This document shows, in pieces, positions 9,761 through 32,758 of a stretch of DNA of 64,000 nucleotides. The notes under the pieces were generated by a model. The model saw only the letters and a list, made by a program, of their open reading frames with translations. It was not told the DNA's origin and ran no database searches. Each line of letters begins with the position of its first letter. The first letter of the stretch is position 1. The position numbers and the translations under genes are program-made. This stretch comes from Leuconostoc miyukkimchii (GTDB taxonomy: Bacteria; Bacillota; Bacilli; Lactobacillales; Lactobacillaceae): NCBI RefSeq assembly GCF_019656055.1, contig NZ_BPKY01000001.1, forward strand, positions 1-64,000, read 5' to 3'.

Positions 9761-9766
9761 ATTATC

Positions 9767-10061
9767 AACGATGAAAAGATGAGTAGTTTGATATCAGTTT
9801 TAAGAGAGTTTACGTTTGGTGAGAGTAAACAACAAAGTCGAATGAAAATGGTCTTGGAGTACAGTTGTTGTGAGCATGGGAATAATACCATACAAGCATG
9901 AACCGGGAGAGCCCGTTATAGCTACCATGATTCCTGTGATGCTATTTTTATAACTAGCAGCGATCATGTATGAGGTGTGCTTTTTTTTGCATACGAAAAC
10001 CGGGTGGTAACACGAGAAGTCGTCCCGCAATCTGATTAGGTTCAGATTGCGGGATTTTTTT
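9767..10061 (+). promoter_or_regulatory. T-box leader (tRNA-sensing riboswitch), probably methionine
   Basis: The leader shows the ordered T-box landmarks. They are an AGAGAG element (about 9803-9808), a distal stem I hairpin GTTTAC/GTAAAC with GGTGAGAG in its loop (9808-9830), the stem III region, the T-box proper CGGGTGGTAACACG (10001-10014) and an intrinsic terminator. In this family uncharged tRNA pairs with the specifier and with the T-box bulge, stabilising the antiterminator. Downstream genes are methionine-related, which predicts an AUG specifier. Candidate ATG triplets are at 9876 and 9898, but I could not fold stem I well enough to choose. Confidence 0.9.
10024..10061 (+). terminator. 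T-box terminator
   Basis: A 12-bp stem CCCGCAATCTGA / TCAGATTGCGGG (10024-10035 with 10042-10053) followed by seven T. The 5' arm overlaps the 3' end of the T-box antiterminator sequence, as expected for a mutually exclusive switch. Confidence 0.92.
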
Positions 10062-18008: not shown

Positions 18009-18040
18009 AATAACGTGATCAATTAAATCGTGCGAGTTAA

Positions 18041-18070
18041 TACCCAAAATATTATTTTGGGTATTTTATT
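18041..18070 (+). terminator. Terminator of metE
   Basis: A 10-bp stem TACCCAAAAT / ATTTTGGGTA (18041-18050 with 18054-18063) followed by TTTTATTTT. Confidence 0.85.
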
Positions 18071-18148: not shown

Positions 18149-18175
18149 ATTGTATGATTAAGTTCATCATACAAT
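18149..18175 (-). terminator. Hairpin after the acetyltransferase gene
   Basis: A 10-bp perfect stem ATTGTATGAT / ATCATACAAT with a 7-nt loop lies 16 bp beyond the minus-strand stop codon. No strong T-run follows, so it is a weak terminator or an mRNA 3' stabiliser. Confidence 0.5.
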
Positions 18176-29908: not shown

Positions 29909-29921
29909 TATATCTTGTTAT

Positions 29922-29993
29922 GGCGCTATGGTCAAGTGGTTAAGACGTCGGCTTCTCAGGCCGAAATCGAGGGTTCGACTCCCTCTAGCGCTA
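29922..29993 (+). tRNA. tRNA-Glu (anticodon CUC)
   Basis: Cloverleaf with acceptor GGCGCTA / TAGCGCT (a G-U first pair), D-arm, anticodon stem TCGGC / GCCGA with loop TTCTCAG giving anticodon CTC, and T-arm GAGGG-TTCGACT-CCCTC. No CCA is encoded. The D-arm GGTCAAGTGGTTAAGAC is typical of tRNA-Glu. The accessory region begins directly at its 3' end, so it is the likely integration site. Confidence 0.93.
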
Positions 29994-30180
29994 TTAAGTA
30001 TTGTATGGCGTTGCATAGGGTTGCAAAAACCTTGATGTAGCGCCTTTTCTTATAAAAAGCATTTCATTACATTGCATGGTATTTCAAGCAAAATAACACA
30101 TAAATAACACATAAAATTAAATGATGATTGAGCGACAGGACGGCATTTGAGCCGTTTTTTGTTTGACCAAATAACACAAA
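29994..30180 (+). other. Putative attachment-site flank with integrase arm-type repeats
   Basis: Directly after the tRNA come short related words with TTGCA/TGCAA around 30010-30035 and 30080. A near-perfect direct repeat ATAACACATAA occurs twice (about 30096-30118), and a third AATAACACAAAA is near 30168. Clustered direct repeats next to a tRNA 3' end are the usual form of tyrosine-integrase arm sites. I did not find a second copy of the tRNA 3' end in the next 10 kb, so the other att boundary is undetermined. Confidence 0.5.
30140..30160 (+). terminator. Terminator-like hairpin after the att flank
   Basis: ACGGC-ATTTGA-GCCGT followed by TTTTTG. No complete gene lies between it and the tRNA, so it may belong to a lost gene of the inserted element. 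Confidence 0.65.
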
Positions 30181-30234
30181 AATAAAATGTGGTACATAAA
30201 TGACATATATACGGAATTAATTGTATATATACAG

Positions 30235-30290
30235 TATAATATTCATAAGTATAACTAAAATTAGTTTTGTCATTTCAAATGACGAAACTA
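30235..30290 (+). promoter_or_regulatory. Promoter and leader hairpin of the three-gene cassette
   Basis: TATAAT at 30235-30240 is preceded by a TATATATACAG stretch. The leader contains a 12-bp stem TAGTTTTGTCAT / ATGACGAAACTA (30262-30273 with 30279-30290, one G-U, 5-nt loop) whose 3' arm ends next to the ribosome-binding site GGGAGG. It could be an operator palindrome or mask translation. Confidence 0.6.
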
Positions 30291-30646: not shown

Positions 30647-31028
30647 TTTATTAGTGGTAGAAACAAGTAATTTAGATATTCTAACTGATTATTTTACAGG
30701 AAGATACACATTTTACTTGGAGTTTATACAATATTCAGACGAATCAGTTACTGATAAGAAACGTTTTGTATTAGAAGTCTTGGGTAAATTAGATCCATTT
30801 GTTAGCAATATGGAATCAGATTTGTTAAGCATTTACGTTGATAAGTACAGGACACATAAACCTTTCATCTTTTACGCTAATAACTTGGCACAACAGGCTG
30901 TCATAAATTCACTTAATAAGAAATTAAACAGACTGGTTAAGGACATTAAAAGACCGCAAATAGCTTTTAAATGTCAATCAACAGGTTTGCTATCACACAA
31001 TGTTATAGCGACACAGGAGGCAATATAA
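30639..31028 (+). CDS. Small phage-regulator-like protein, paralogue 2
   Basis: 129 residues. It shares with paralogue 1 the pattern IL-x-x-YF near the N-terminus and HKPFIFYANNLA then LNKKLNRLVKDIKRPQ. With paralogue 3 it shares DYFTGR (DYFSGR there). RBS AGGAGAG lies at the end of paralogue 1 and the genes overlap by 8 nt. The C-terminal tail after RPQ is unrelated to the others and ends one base into paralogue 3. Probably a DNA- or polymerase-binding helical protein by analogy; not proven. Confidence 0.7.
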   Translation: MSDLLVVETSNLDILTDYFTGRYTFYLEFIQYSDESVTDKKRFVLEVLGKLDPFVSNMESDLLSIYVDKYRTHKPFIFYANNLAQQAVINSLNKKLNRLVKDIKRPQIAFKCQSTGLLSHNVIATQEAI

Positions 31029-31345
31029 TGGCAGATAGTACAGATAAGATGTTGAGAGATTACTTCTCTGGTCGATTGAAGCTCATGTCAGAAATTGATC
31101 CAAAACATAAACAAGAGATTGCTGATATAACATTTTGCTTGTCAGTCGTCCAACCGGAACACAGCCAGGTTATTAAACGTTACTACAGTGATAAGTTCCT
31201 AACATGGGATGAAGTAGTCATTGAAGCAGGTAAAGGTAATTCTACTTTAAAAACTTGGCGGAGTGACTTTAAAACATTGTTAAATATCATCTTGCAACAC
31301 GGGGATGAGTTCATAAACTTACGACAAGAAGCATTGCAAGCGTAG
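31028..31345 (+). CDS. ArpU/RinA-like transcriptional regulator, paralogue 3
   Basis: 105 residues from ATG 31028 (RBS CAGGAGG). MLRDYFSGRLKLMSEI, then RYYSDKFLTWDEVVIEAGKG and STLKTWRSDFKTLL, form a sigma-region-4-like helix-turn-helix. The YY-D-K-LTW-EV word is characteristic of ArpU/RinA phage late-transcription activators. It overlaps paralogue 2 by one base. No phage structural genes follow, so its target is not in the window. A short stem AAGCA/TGCTT with seven T (about 31329-31356) may end the transcript. Confidence 0.72.
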   Translation: MADSTDKMLRDYFSGRLKLMSEIDPKHKQEIADITFCLSVVQPEHSQVIKRYYSDKFLTWDEVVIEAGKGNSTLKTWRSDFKTLLNIILQHGDEFINLRQEALQA

Positions 31346-31359
31346 TGCTTTTTTTGTTT

Positions 31360-32241
31360 ACAATAAAAAAACACCCCCGCCCCTATGTACCAGGAGGAAA
31401 CGTCACAAGGTGGCGTCCTGAAATCTTAAGAATGCAGAAATCAAAACTTTTTATAAGGCGTTTTTAGAATATAAAATGCTGATATATAGGCATTTCTAAC
31501 TAAAAATAGGCGTTTAGGGGTAGCACAAACATTGGCCATTAGTAGCGTGATTTGATGTAAAAGCAGTCAAGTTTTTAACATACTATGACAAATAGCTATT
31601 CATTTGTTCTGCCCATTTTGAAGGAACAAAGTAAGTTACATTAAAAGAGGCAATGTTGTTTATAAAAAAGGGGTCGGTATTATAGATTTGTGTTAGTTCT
31701 TCCAAAGATTCGGCCTGAGCTATAATCATGCCACCTGTTCGTGGTTCTTTTCTACCAGACATAATAAAATGCCCTGATTTATAGTACCTATCTAAGTATT
31801 CAATATGAGCTGGTAAATAATGTTCAACATCAGCAATCGGTTTGATATAAGTTAATTCAATTATAAACATATTTTTTTCTCCTAATAATATTTATTAATT
31901 AAATAATACTAAAGTGTTTTTTTCTTGTCAACTGGACGCGCTAATGAAGTAAATCCAAAAGTAGGGTAGGAATAAGGGGTACTTTTTACGGTAGTTTGGA
32001 CGTAAAGCACCTCAAACCCTTGTGGCTGTAGTTCTAAATTGTCCCCGTTTTAGAAATCATAGTGTTGTAAACGTTGATATAACGGCATTTCTGTGGTTTA
32101 TAGTAGAATTTATAAACGCCTTTATATCAACGTTTGTGGCATAGCCCCCCTATAAAAAAGTTTTCAAAATTCAACATTTTTATAAGACGACGATATGTGT
32201 GCGCTCTTTAATCTGGTAAAAAGGGGCGGGGGTGTTTTGTA
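31360..32241. mobile_element. Module of about 0.88 kb bounded by inverted repeats, carrying a YciI-like gene
   Basis: Left end 31360-31393 and right end 32213-32241 are inverted copies: a 15-bp exact core AACACCCCCGCCCCT continuing as TACCAG after three mixed bases, and outward as TACAA with a small gap. Next to the left end, CAGGA and CGTCAC pair with TCCTG and GTGGCG (31391-31420) in a two-part hairpin. Inside the right end a 14-bp inverted repeat AAACGTTGATATAA lies at 32069-32082 and 32122-32135. There is no transposase and no obvious target duplication, so this could be a non-autonomous element, a plasmid fragment or a long RNA hairpin. Confidence 0.5.
31583..31870 (-). CDS. YciI-like protein
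   Basis: 95 residues, ferredoxin-like YCII domain: MFIIELTYIKPIADVEHYLPAHIEYLDRY with the conserved His, a central GRKEPRTGGMIIAQAES and the terminal DPFFINNIASFNV. YciI-like proteins are small enzymes of mostly unknown reaction; some are lactonases or dehydrochlorinases. It has its own promoter on the minus strand (TTGACA 31931-31926, 17 bp, TATTAT 31908-31903) and RBS AGGAG. It is the only recognisable gene inside the inverted-repeat module. Confidence 0.82.
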   Translation of the reverse strand: MFIIELTYIKPIADVEHYLPAHIEYLDRYYKSGHFIMSGRKEPRTGGMIIAQAESLEELTQIYNTDPFFINNIASFNVTYFVPSKWAEQMNSYLS

Positions 32242-32266
32242 TTCAGCCAACCTGATTAGCAAATTA

Positions 32267-32342
32267 CTCGCTATCGTTTGAAACGATAACGAAATCCGTT
32301 ATCAATATAATTGATATCGAGGTCAATCAGATTGACAGCGAG
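32267..32342. repeat. 76-nt array of consecutive perfect hairpins
   Basis: The stretch parses without gaps. The outer arm CTCGCT comes first, then hairpins ATCGTTTGAAACGAT, AACG-AAATC-CGTT, ATCAAT-ATA-ATTGAT, a 6-nt linker ATCGAG, hairpin GTCAAT-CAG-ATTGAC, and the closing arm AGCGAG. A further pair TGTAAC / GTTACA (32352-32357 with 32377-32382) follows. Such a multi-branched fold in DNA or RNA is not explained by any gene. It sits 25 bp from the right end of the inverted-repeat module. A single-strand replication origin of a rolling-circle plasmid, a recombination site or a structured RNA are possibilities. Confidence 0.6.
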
Positions 32343-32382
32343 CAATGTGACTGTAACCACGGTTGTTAGGGTTGCTGTTACA

Positions 32383-32721
32383 TGCACACCTAAAAATGAC
32401 GACAAATAAAAAGGGGCCGGTAAAATACAGATACCTGACGTAGCAAATTGCGACACCAGCTTAAACTAAATACATATGTTATTGAGTTGCATACGATAGC
32501 GTATATCTTACTAACAAAGCACAAGTGTAGGTAAAACTACGGTTGTTGTGTGTCGTGATACATTTAATAAGTTTCATCCCCGAACACGTCCGTATAGTAT
32601 ATTTGCTGATATTCAACGCACGCTAGGTTAAATATAGAGTTTAATATATAAACGAGTACATTTATACTAAAACAATTAACAACGCTTAAAACGCCTCTCA
32701 TAGCGTTAAAATAGACACAAT
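32383..32721. other. Gene-poor stretch before the zinc-ribbon gene
   Basis: About 340 bp with no supportable coding frame. It contains a short inverted repeat AACGCT / AGCGTT (about 32681-32706) and scattered AT-rich sequence. I see nothing else that can be named. Confidence 0.5.
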
Positions 32722-32758
32722 AAAACCACGACCTAGCTTAGAGCTAGAGCGTGGTTTT
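32722..32758. terminator. Terminator of the zinc-ribbon gene
   Basis: AAAACCACG / CGTGGTTTT (32722-32730 with 32750-32758) enclosing TAGCT / AGCTA. The 5' arm on the minus strand includes the stop codon region. Confidence 0.8.

Follow-up and report, generated by a model that had tools for sequence, protein, structure and literature searches.

A three-unit palindrome array in a tRNA-linked island of Leuconostoc miyukkimchii resembles palindromes inside phage antirepressor genes

Rickettsia palindromic elements are found between genes and also in frame inside genes, and REP/BIME repeats, with their RAYT transposases, are short imperfect palindromes that occur in clusters. The c4 RNA of phage P1 is an antisense RNA that regulates antirepressor mRNA, and the ORF6N and Bro-N proteins form a large class of phage regulators that is still poorly understood. 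Here, an array of palindromes was analyzed in a stretch of 64,000 nucleotides of the L. miyukkimchii chromosome (hereafter the window), where it lies in an island that looks like a decayed satellite of the phage-inducible chromosomal island (PICI) type.

The run of hairpins described in the first-pass annotation of this DNA proved to be real. An outer 6-bp stem, in which CTCGCT (32267-32272) pairs with AGCGAG (32337-32342), encloses four near-contiguous palindromes between 32272 and 32336:

32267..32342, no strand assigned: whole array, consisting of the outer 6-bp stem and units A-C (see below)
32272-32288: palindrome 1, 8-bp arms and a loop of 1 nt
32285-32303: palindrome 2, 7-bp arms and a loop of 5 nt
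32300-32316: palindrome 3, 7-bp arms and a loop of 3 nt
32322-32336: palindrome 4, 7-bp arms and a loop of 1 nt

Palindromes of this grade were counted with arms of at least 7 bp and an odd loop of at most 5 nt (n = 27 in the 64-kb window), and clusters were defined within 70 bp. The array was the largest cluster in the window, with four palindromes in 70 bp, and the sole one with more than two. In 60 Markov-1 simulations of 64 kb each, the largest cluster held one palindrome in 36 runs and two in 24, and never more, which upholds the earlier judgment that a chance origin is improbable. Folding of both strands showed that the region 32240-32400 is more stable than its shuffles as plus-strand RNA (z -3.48), minus-strand RNA (z -4.73) and plus-strand DNA (z -3.74). 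A minus-strand frame of 61 amino acids (32271-32456) overlaps the array, and its conservation had been named as the observation that would speak for a protein instead; this frame is not kept in genome G009, where about 156 bp are missing between 32367 and 32524 and the array has one difference across 32267-32341. Elsewhere in the window, strong palindromes at 18039-18065 and 18149-18175 look by eye like ordinary transcription terminators, and a T-box leader (Rfam RF00230) lies at 9762-10030.

Palindrome 2 is the junction of two overlapping units, and a reading as three units of about 27 bp suits the array better:

32267..32293, no strand assigned: unit A, CTCGCTATCGTTTGAAACGATAACGAA, 11 of 13 complementary pairs; R2 score 24.4 bits, E 5.9e-4
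32295..32321, no strand assigned: unit B, TCCGTTATCAATATAATTGATATCGAG; R2 score 27.9 bits, E 4.7e-5
32316..32342, no strand assigned: unit C, ATCGAGGTCAATCAGATTGACAGCGAG, overlapping unit B, 10 of 13 pairs

The scores come from R2, a model built from antirepressor copies alone and run over 19 chosen sources; a wider model, R1, includes the window units. Units A and B are the only R2 matches in the window, while unit C has no R1 or R2 match at E ≤ 1 there, and the neighboring hairpin at about 32345-32385 matches neither unit model. In 375,521 bases from 32 viral control contigs, whose base composition was unmatched, R2 gave eight matches with a best score of 20.4 bits, so that weaker R2 matches elsewhere mean little. 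The controls were 120 unrelated viral contigs among the matches listed for pattern AACACCCCCGCCCC, taken for control use only, and the model controls drew on 90 and, for R2, on 32 of these 120. Position by position, unit A is identical to one antirepressor-gene palindrome at 22 of 27 sites, unit B to antirepressor-gene palindromes at 21 of 27, and unit C to the one in the L368 antirepressor gene at 21 of 27. As compared to these 21-22 identities, random 27-mers of the window (n = 3000) reached a median of 12 with the coding palindromes, 18 at the 99.9% level and 21 at most. At the level of sequence, the kinship of the window units with the antirepressor palindromes is well supported, and units A and B show the family resemblance: both match the antirepressor-only model, which misses C.

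The antirepressor palindromes themselves were found in two ways. Pattern scans led to ORF6N antirepressor genes with an in-frame 27-bp palindrome in the DNA for one variable loop of the ORF6N N-terminal domain, and Pfam ORF6N was confirmed in all five antirepressor genes scanned; for pattern GTCAATCARATTGACC, L266, L348, L368, and L378 were inspected closely out of 69 stretches. Other copies, drawn from genomes and annotated phages, were found by protein homology alone and include those of Lacticaseibacillus phages R23.9 and P2.4. In a set of 11 antirepressor copies (A5), 84.8% of cells were paired, compared to 69.5 ± 2.4 after shuffling (0/500), and the covariation score was 0.506 against 0.212 in shuffles (0/500) and at most 0.132 in slid controls. 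Double changes were present in 9 of 12 pairs, a value reached by 5 of 500 shuffles, and the number of pair types was not unusual (105/500 shuffles). For six of the 11 copies the pairing is inflated, since the DNA patterns that retrieved them prescribe part of each arm; the five copies independent of arm patterns are L415, L421, L422, L424, and L433. For 18 units including those of the window, the covariation score was 0.406 compared to 0.182 in shuffles (0/500). The test for compensatory changes that the first-pass annotation had suggested thus turned out in favor of structure, with double changes in the units that keep the arms complementary, and in the aligned antirepressor palindromes arm complementarity is evidently maintained through such changes. 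The only invariant positions in A5 are C9 and G19, and the half-sites otherwise vary widely, which is unusual for the operator of one protein and counts against reading the palindrome as a binding site.

The position of the palindrome within the genes was analyzed next to its pairing. In ORF6N genes collected by homology alone, the best 27-mer palindrome tends toward the same loop, whatever its sequence. In an alignment of 23 ORF6N genes it fell within one 12-column window in 14; 60 codon-shuffled sets averaged 5.3 and never exceeded 7. The other 9 genes have it outside this densest window. In this count the fragments L416, L479, and L480 were dropped, L432 was merged with an identical protein, and L419, L425, and L491 had no ORF by the rule used, L425 having a loop palindrome with 13/13 pairs. 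The Bro-N set, fetched as a control family, behaved like ORF6N, with the best palindrome inside one loop window in 16 of 29 genes (codon-shuffled mean 6.4, maximum 10) and outside it in 13 of 29; Bro-N genes carry a palindrome analogous to that of the ORF6N loop. The 51 window ORFs then served as the control. A codon-shuffle p ≤ 0.05 was obtained for 10 of 27 ORF6N genes, 9 of 29 Bro-N genes and 1 of 51 window ORFs, single genes above p 0.05 being 17 of 27 and 20 of 29 in the two families, respectively. Palindromes with 13/13 pairs occur in L410, L417, and L425, and that of L417 is read in another frame, so that the peptide is not the thing kept. An AlphaFold model of the antirepressor was poor (mean pLDDT 47.9), with residues 73-89 unresolved. 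At the level of listings, a literature search found no earlier report of intragenic ORF6N/Bro-N palindromes. In phage phiadh (L425, 701-1498), the annotation splits the antirepressor into two ORFs, tec and ORF159; close to the end of tec, the same loop has a perfect palindrome of 27 bp with a stop codon in it.

R1 matches at E ≤ 0.1 were obtained in 10 of 19 Leuconostoc genomes, with few copies per genome, and at E ≤ 0.01 in 46 of 301 genomes of the family. Among 43 R1 loci inspected, seven are ORF6N genes or fragments (L434, L452, L454, L459, L466, L472, L476) and some are non-coding arrays (L453, L458, L469); others lie within other genes or are, by eye, plain terminators (L437, L441, L447). 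Arrays of several units were also observed in other genera of the Lactobacillaceae, at L230 (1468-1705) and L453 (1382-1527).

A 54-nt stretch at the capsid/connector junction of L280 matches the array with 81% identity and E 4.9e-7, a value that refers to a 3.5-Mb set of chosen loci. Extra hairpin units are present at 4 of 21 capsid-connector junctions (L266, L272, L279, L280), two junctions (L281, L291) have another extra hairpin, and 15 have the short standard hairpin only; some of the loci look nearly duplicate, so that the 21 are not all independent events, and L195 was excluded (capsid 33% and connector 23% identical). A short hairpin (for instance TACCCAGAAGTGGGTA or TCCCCAGAAGTGGGGA) 3' of the capsid gene shows apparent compensating changes in L198, L263, L266-L283, and L291. 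By resemblance of sequence, then, the palindrome does occur outside genes, in satellites and at other loci.

Such presence and absence at one intergenic site speaks for tiny mobile or recombining palindromic elements that spread among phages and satellites, the antirepressor loop being a tolerated landing site and the array functionless. The same explanation draws on the word order and orientation of units, which vary between contexts, on the arrays in other genera, on the 156 bp missing beside the array in G009, and on the loss in G011 of a stretch between two like cores; it accounts for the non-coding copies equally well. However, the best palindromes cluster at one antirepressor loop, including in seven ORF6N genes of unrelated sequence at 22-30% protein identity, and this favored position in genes of very different sequence is left unexplained by mobility. 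Neither did the loop palindrome appear as a clean insertion relative to homologues of the antirepressor genes, and no enzyme that could mobilize such elements came to notice. We regard mobile elements as a rather unlikely explanation.

Leuconostoc phage LLC-1 (KJ608189) has a related hairpin locus. In the record KJ608189.1, a phage and a distinct PICI-like satellite appear to be joined (L218, 38100-50000), and the PICI-like part contains a primase, an integrase, an attP-like arm and methyltransferase cargo. Six LLC-1-type loci could be aligned over 487 columns, giving a covariation term of +5.31 and a double change in 6 of 105 pairs. Folding of five members gave z values of about 0 in G011 and G002; G008 did not go beyond -1.7, and good folding was seen in LLC-1 and G013. 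To judge from this alignment, one large RNA fold is not kept across the LLC-1-type loci. The motif TCRTTTNAAAYGA, with at most one mismatch, occurs twice in the 50-kb LLC-1 record, both times at the hairpin locus. The idea that the motif examined first is an operator for the repressor of the element itself was rejected, since in the LLC-1 record it is found only at the hairpin locus and not near the repressor.

These loci bear on the question of whether the hairpins act as RNA, for instance as an antisense-RNA target or decoy that regulates antirepressor mRNA in the manner of c4, satellite arrays being decoys with several alleles. This would agree with how strongly both strands fold, with matches to promoters and terminators around the LLC-1-type locus, and with the location of the capsid-connector copies between two same-strand genes. 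Against it, excess folding is weak or absent in G008, G011, and G002, no promoter-like match was found at 31931-32399, the units occur in either orientation, and the array has no Rfam match (whole window searched at the gathering threshold); six related loci gave one unrelated weak match. Mismatches within the palindromes were then compared by type. In copies found by homology, G.T and A.C numbered 11 and 15, respectively, in ORF6N genes and 8 and 10 in Bro-N genes, and this balance, with no excess of G.T over A.C, favors DNA over sense RNA. In copies found by patterns or models, G.T numbered 9 and A.C 2, which alone would suit RNA; we ascribe this excess to the patterns, although the counts cannot prove it. 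Regulation through RNA hairpins is, on balance, unlikely.

The array belongs to an island that starts at a tRNA-Glu gene and includes the following features:

29921-29994: tRNA-Glu
29968..30200, plus strand: 3' end of tRNA-Glu with an att-arm-like region, which recurs beside tRNA/tmRNA genes across Leuconostoc; putative att role
30263..30289, no strand assigned: further palindrome of similar style, core ATTTCAAAT, 5' of the island's first small ORF, 12 of 13 pairs
30989..31009, no strand assigned: GCTATCACACAATGTTATAGC hairpin before the Alt-like gene (by eye)
31034..31345, plus strand: Alt-like late transcription activator (PHROG 2198, E 1.7e-7)
31368..31393, plus strand: cos-like site F, following the Alt-like gene, core ACACCCCCGCCCC; as an inverted repeat 92% identical to 32213-32238 (26 nt)
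32213..32238, minus strand: cos-like site R, inverted copy of site F, 28 bp from the array; relatives found
32722..32758, no strand assigned: terminator-like hairpin closing the non-coding zone

The palindrome at 30263-30289 has no R1 or R2 score at E ≤ 1, and its kinship to the units is a resemblance only. The order of the island is tRNA-Glu, att-arm-like region, small ORFs, Alt-like gene, cos-like site F and a YCII gene, followed on the 3' side by the inverted cos-like site R, the array and the terminator-like hairpin. Within this one island, two inverted GC-rich cos-like copies flank the YCII cargo gene. By eye, words like those of the GCTATCACACAATGTTATAGC hairpin recur in LLC-1-type loci and in the capsid-connector insertions of L272 and L279, and site F resembles a stretch before terS in L200 and L263. 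The left end of the island is also present in L. citreum, L. inhae, and L. fallax, where an integrase lies at the far end and repressor and primase/helicase genes, read from translations, lie in between. At the same tRNA, genome G001 holds an element with repressor, primase, Alt, HNH, terS, and terL genes (PHROGs) and portal, capsid, and integrase genes (Pfam), in which the stretch before terS resembles by eye the cos-like site of the window. Reading of the window ORFs of 26-46 kb recognized no integrase, no convincing second copy of the att core was found in the window, and no replication or terminase genes were seen in its island. The combination of an integrase, a replication module and att on both sides was thus not recognized, while an att-arm-like region, an Alt-like gene and a cos-like site are shared with complete satellites. 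With neither integrase nor convincing second core copy, the island looks like a decayed PICI-type satellite at tRNA-Glu, a reading that is supported partly by eye, with the array in its non-coding cargo zone.

This setting also bears on the candidates offered in the first-pass annotation. Its structured non-coding feature stands, while the single-strand replication origin and the plain small structured RNA are not supported. The array sits in a chromosomal, tRNA-linked island with no evident rolling-circle Rep or plasmid context, and the three plasmid records that gave a match align best at 32052-32093, which lies outside the array. The satellite relatives have primase/helicase-like genes and, by eye, a separate AT-rich gap bearing repeats, which speaks against a rolling-circle origin; a plain structured RNA is disfavored by the Rfam result, by the covariation term and weak folding of some LLC-1-type loci, and by the mismatch balance of the homology-found coding copies. 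A replication origin or packaging (cos/pac) element of the satellite would find support in the two TCRTTTNAAAYGA occurrences, both at the LLC-1 hairpin locus, and in the array adjoining cos-like site R. By eye, however, complete satellites have their AT-rich repeat-bearing gap behind the primase/helicase-like genes, and in the elements of L. inhae, L. citreum, and L. fallax no such cluster could be seen in that gap, although the L. citreum element has one unit at another place. Like units are also present at capsid-connector junctions and within antirepressor genes, and an origin or packaging role is considered very unlikely. A folded single-stranded DNA recombination site (attC-like) for cargo exchange, the remaining candidate, agrees with the observation that cargo genes differ between otherwise common non-coding modules; it leaves the in-gene copies at the favored loop unexplained, an integron-type integrase did not come to notice, and this candidate is highly improbable.

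The explanation that we tentatively prefer, while holding it at somewhat less than even chances, is that the array consists of three overlapping alleles of a palindrome of about 27 bp that otherwise resides in antirepressor loops, and that these are predicted binding or decoy sites for dimeric proteins of the antirepressor family. We infer a function of the units as protein sites from arms that change together, little fixed sequence, variable orientation and the frame of L417, all of which are as expected if a symmetric protein binds a double-stranded site. The palindrome would then act as double-stranded DNA, and its binder would most likely be the antirepressor-family protein itself, a natural candidate because the palindrome lies in the DNA for its binding domain, or a partner coevolving with it. 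Within a gene, the palindrome could mediate autoregulation of the antirepressor; a run of several alleles in a satellite could serve to sense, or to titrate, antirepressors that different helper phages make. The array in the window is probably a relic of such a function, since neither an integrase nor replication genes could be recognized in the island. The source genome gave no match to an ORF6N or Bro-N gene at E ≤ 0.001, which is in keeping with a relic and also leaves the array without a cognate protein of either kind, a point against the binding-site reading. The wider proposal is doubtful: that ORF6N and Bro-N genes carry the putative site of their own protein in the variable loop of its nucleic-acid-binding domain, one stretch of bases thereby setting both site and specificity, which would change in step, and that arrays in satellites, capsid-encoding ones included, of which the window holds one, sense or titrate these proteins. 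If the loop palindrome were a real site, the target of ORF6N and Bro-N regulators could be read from the gene itself, and satellites would be linked to their helpers through DNA decoys or sensors predictable from sequence, making satellite-helper matching testable.

In comparison with known systems, the island shares with Leuconostoc PICIs and capsid-forming PICIs the att-arm-like region at a tRNA/tmRNA gene, the Alt-like gene, the cos-like site and the cargo zone, and differs from Leuconostoc PICIs in having no visible integrase, replication or terminase genes. The intragenic palindromes of ORF6N and Bro-N genes are likewise 27 bp long, with arms kept complementary through double changes, and the window units have in common with the ORF6N copies the words GGTC/GACC and TATC/GATA and the cores AATNNNATT and GTTNNNAAC, whereas the window copies are non-coding and stand three in a row with overlap. 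Rickettsia palindromic elements are similarly both intergenic and intragenic in frame, but they are longer, and the in-gene site described here sits mostly in a single loop of one domain family. REP/BIME repeats resemble the array as short, imperfect and clustered palindromes, while here the copies are few per genome (19 genomes of the genus) and are located in phage elements and in coding DNA.
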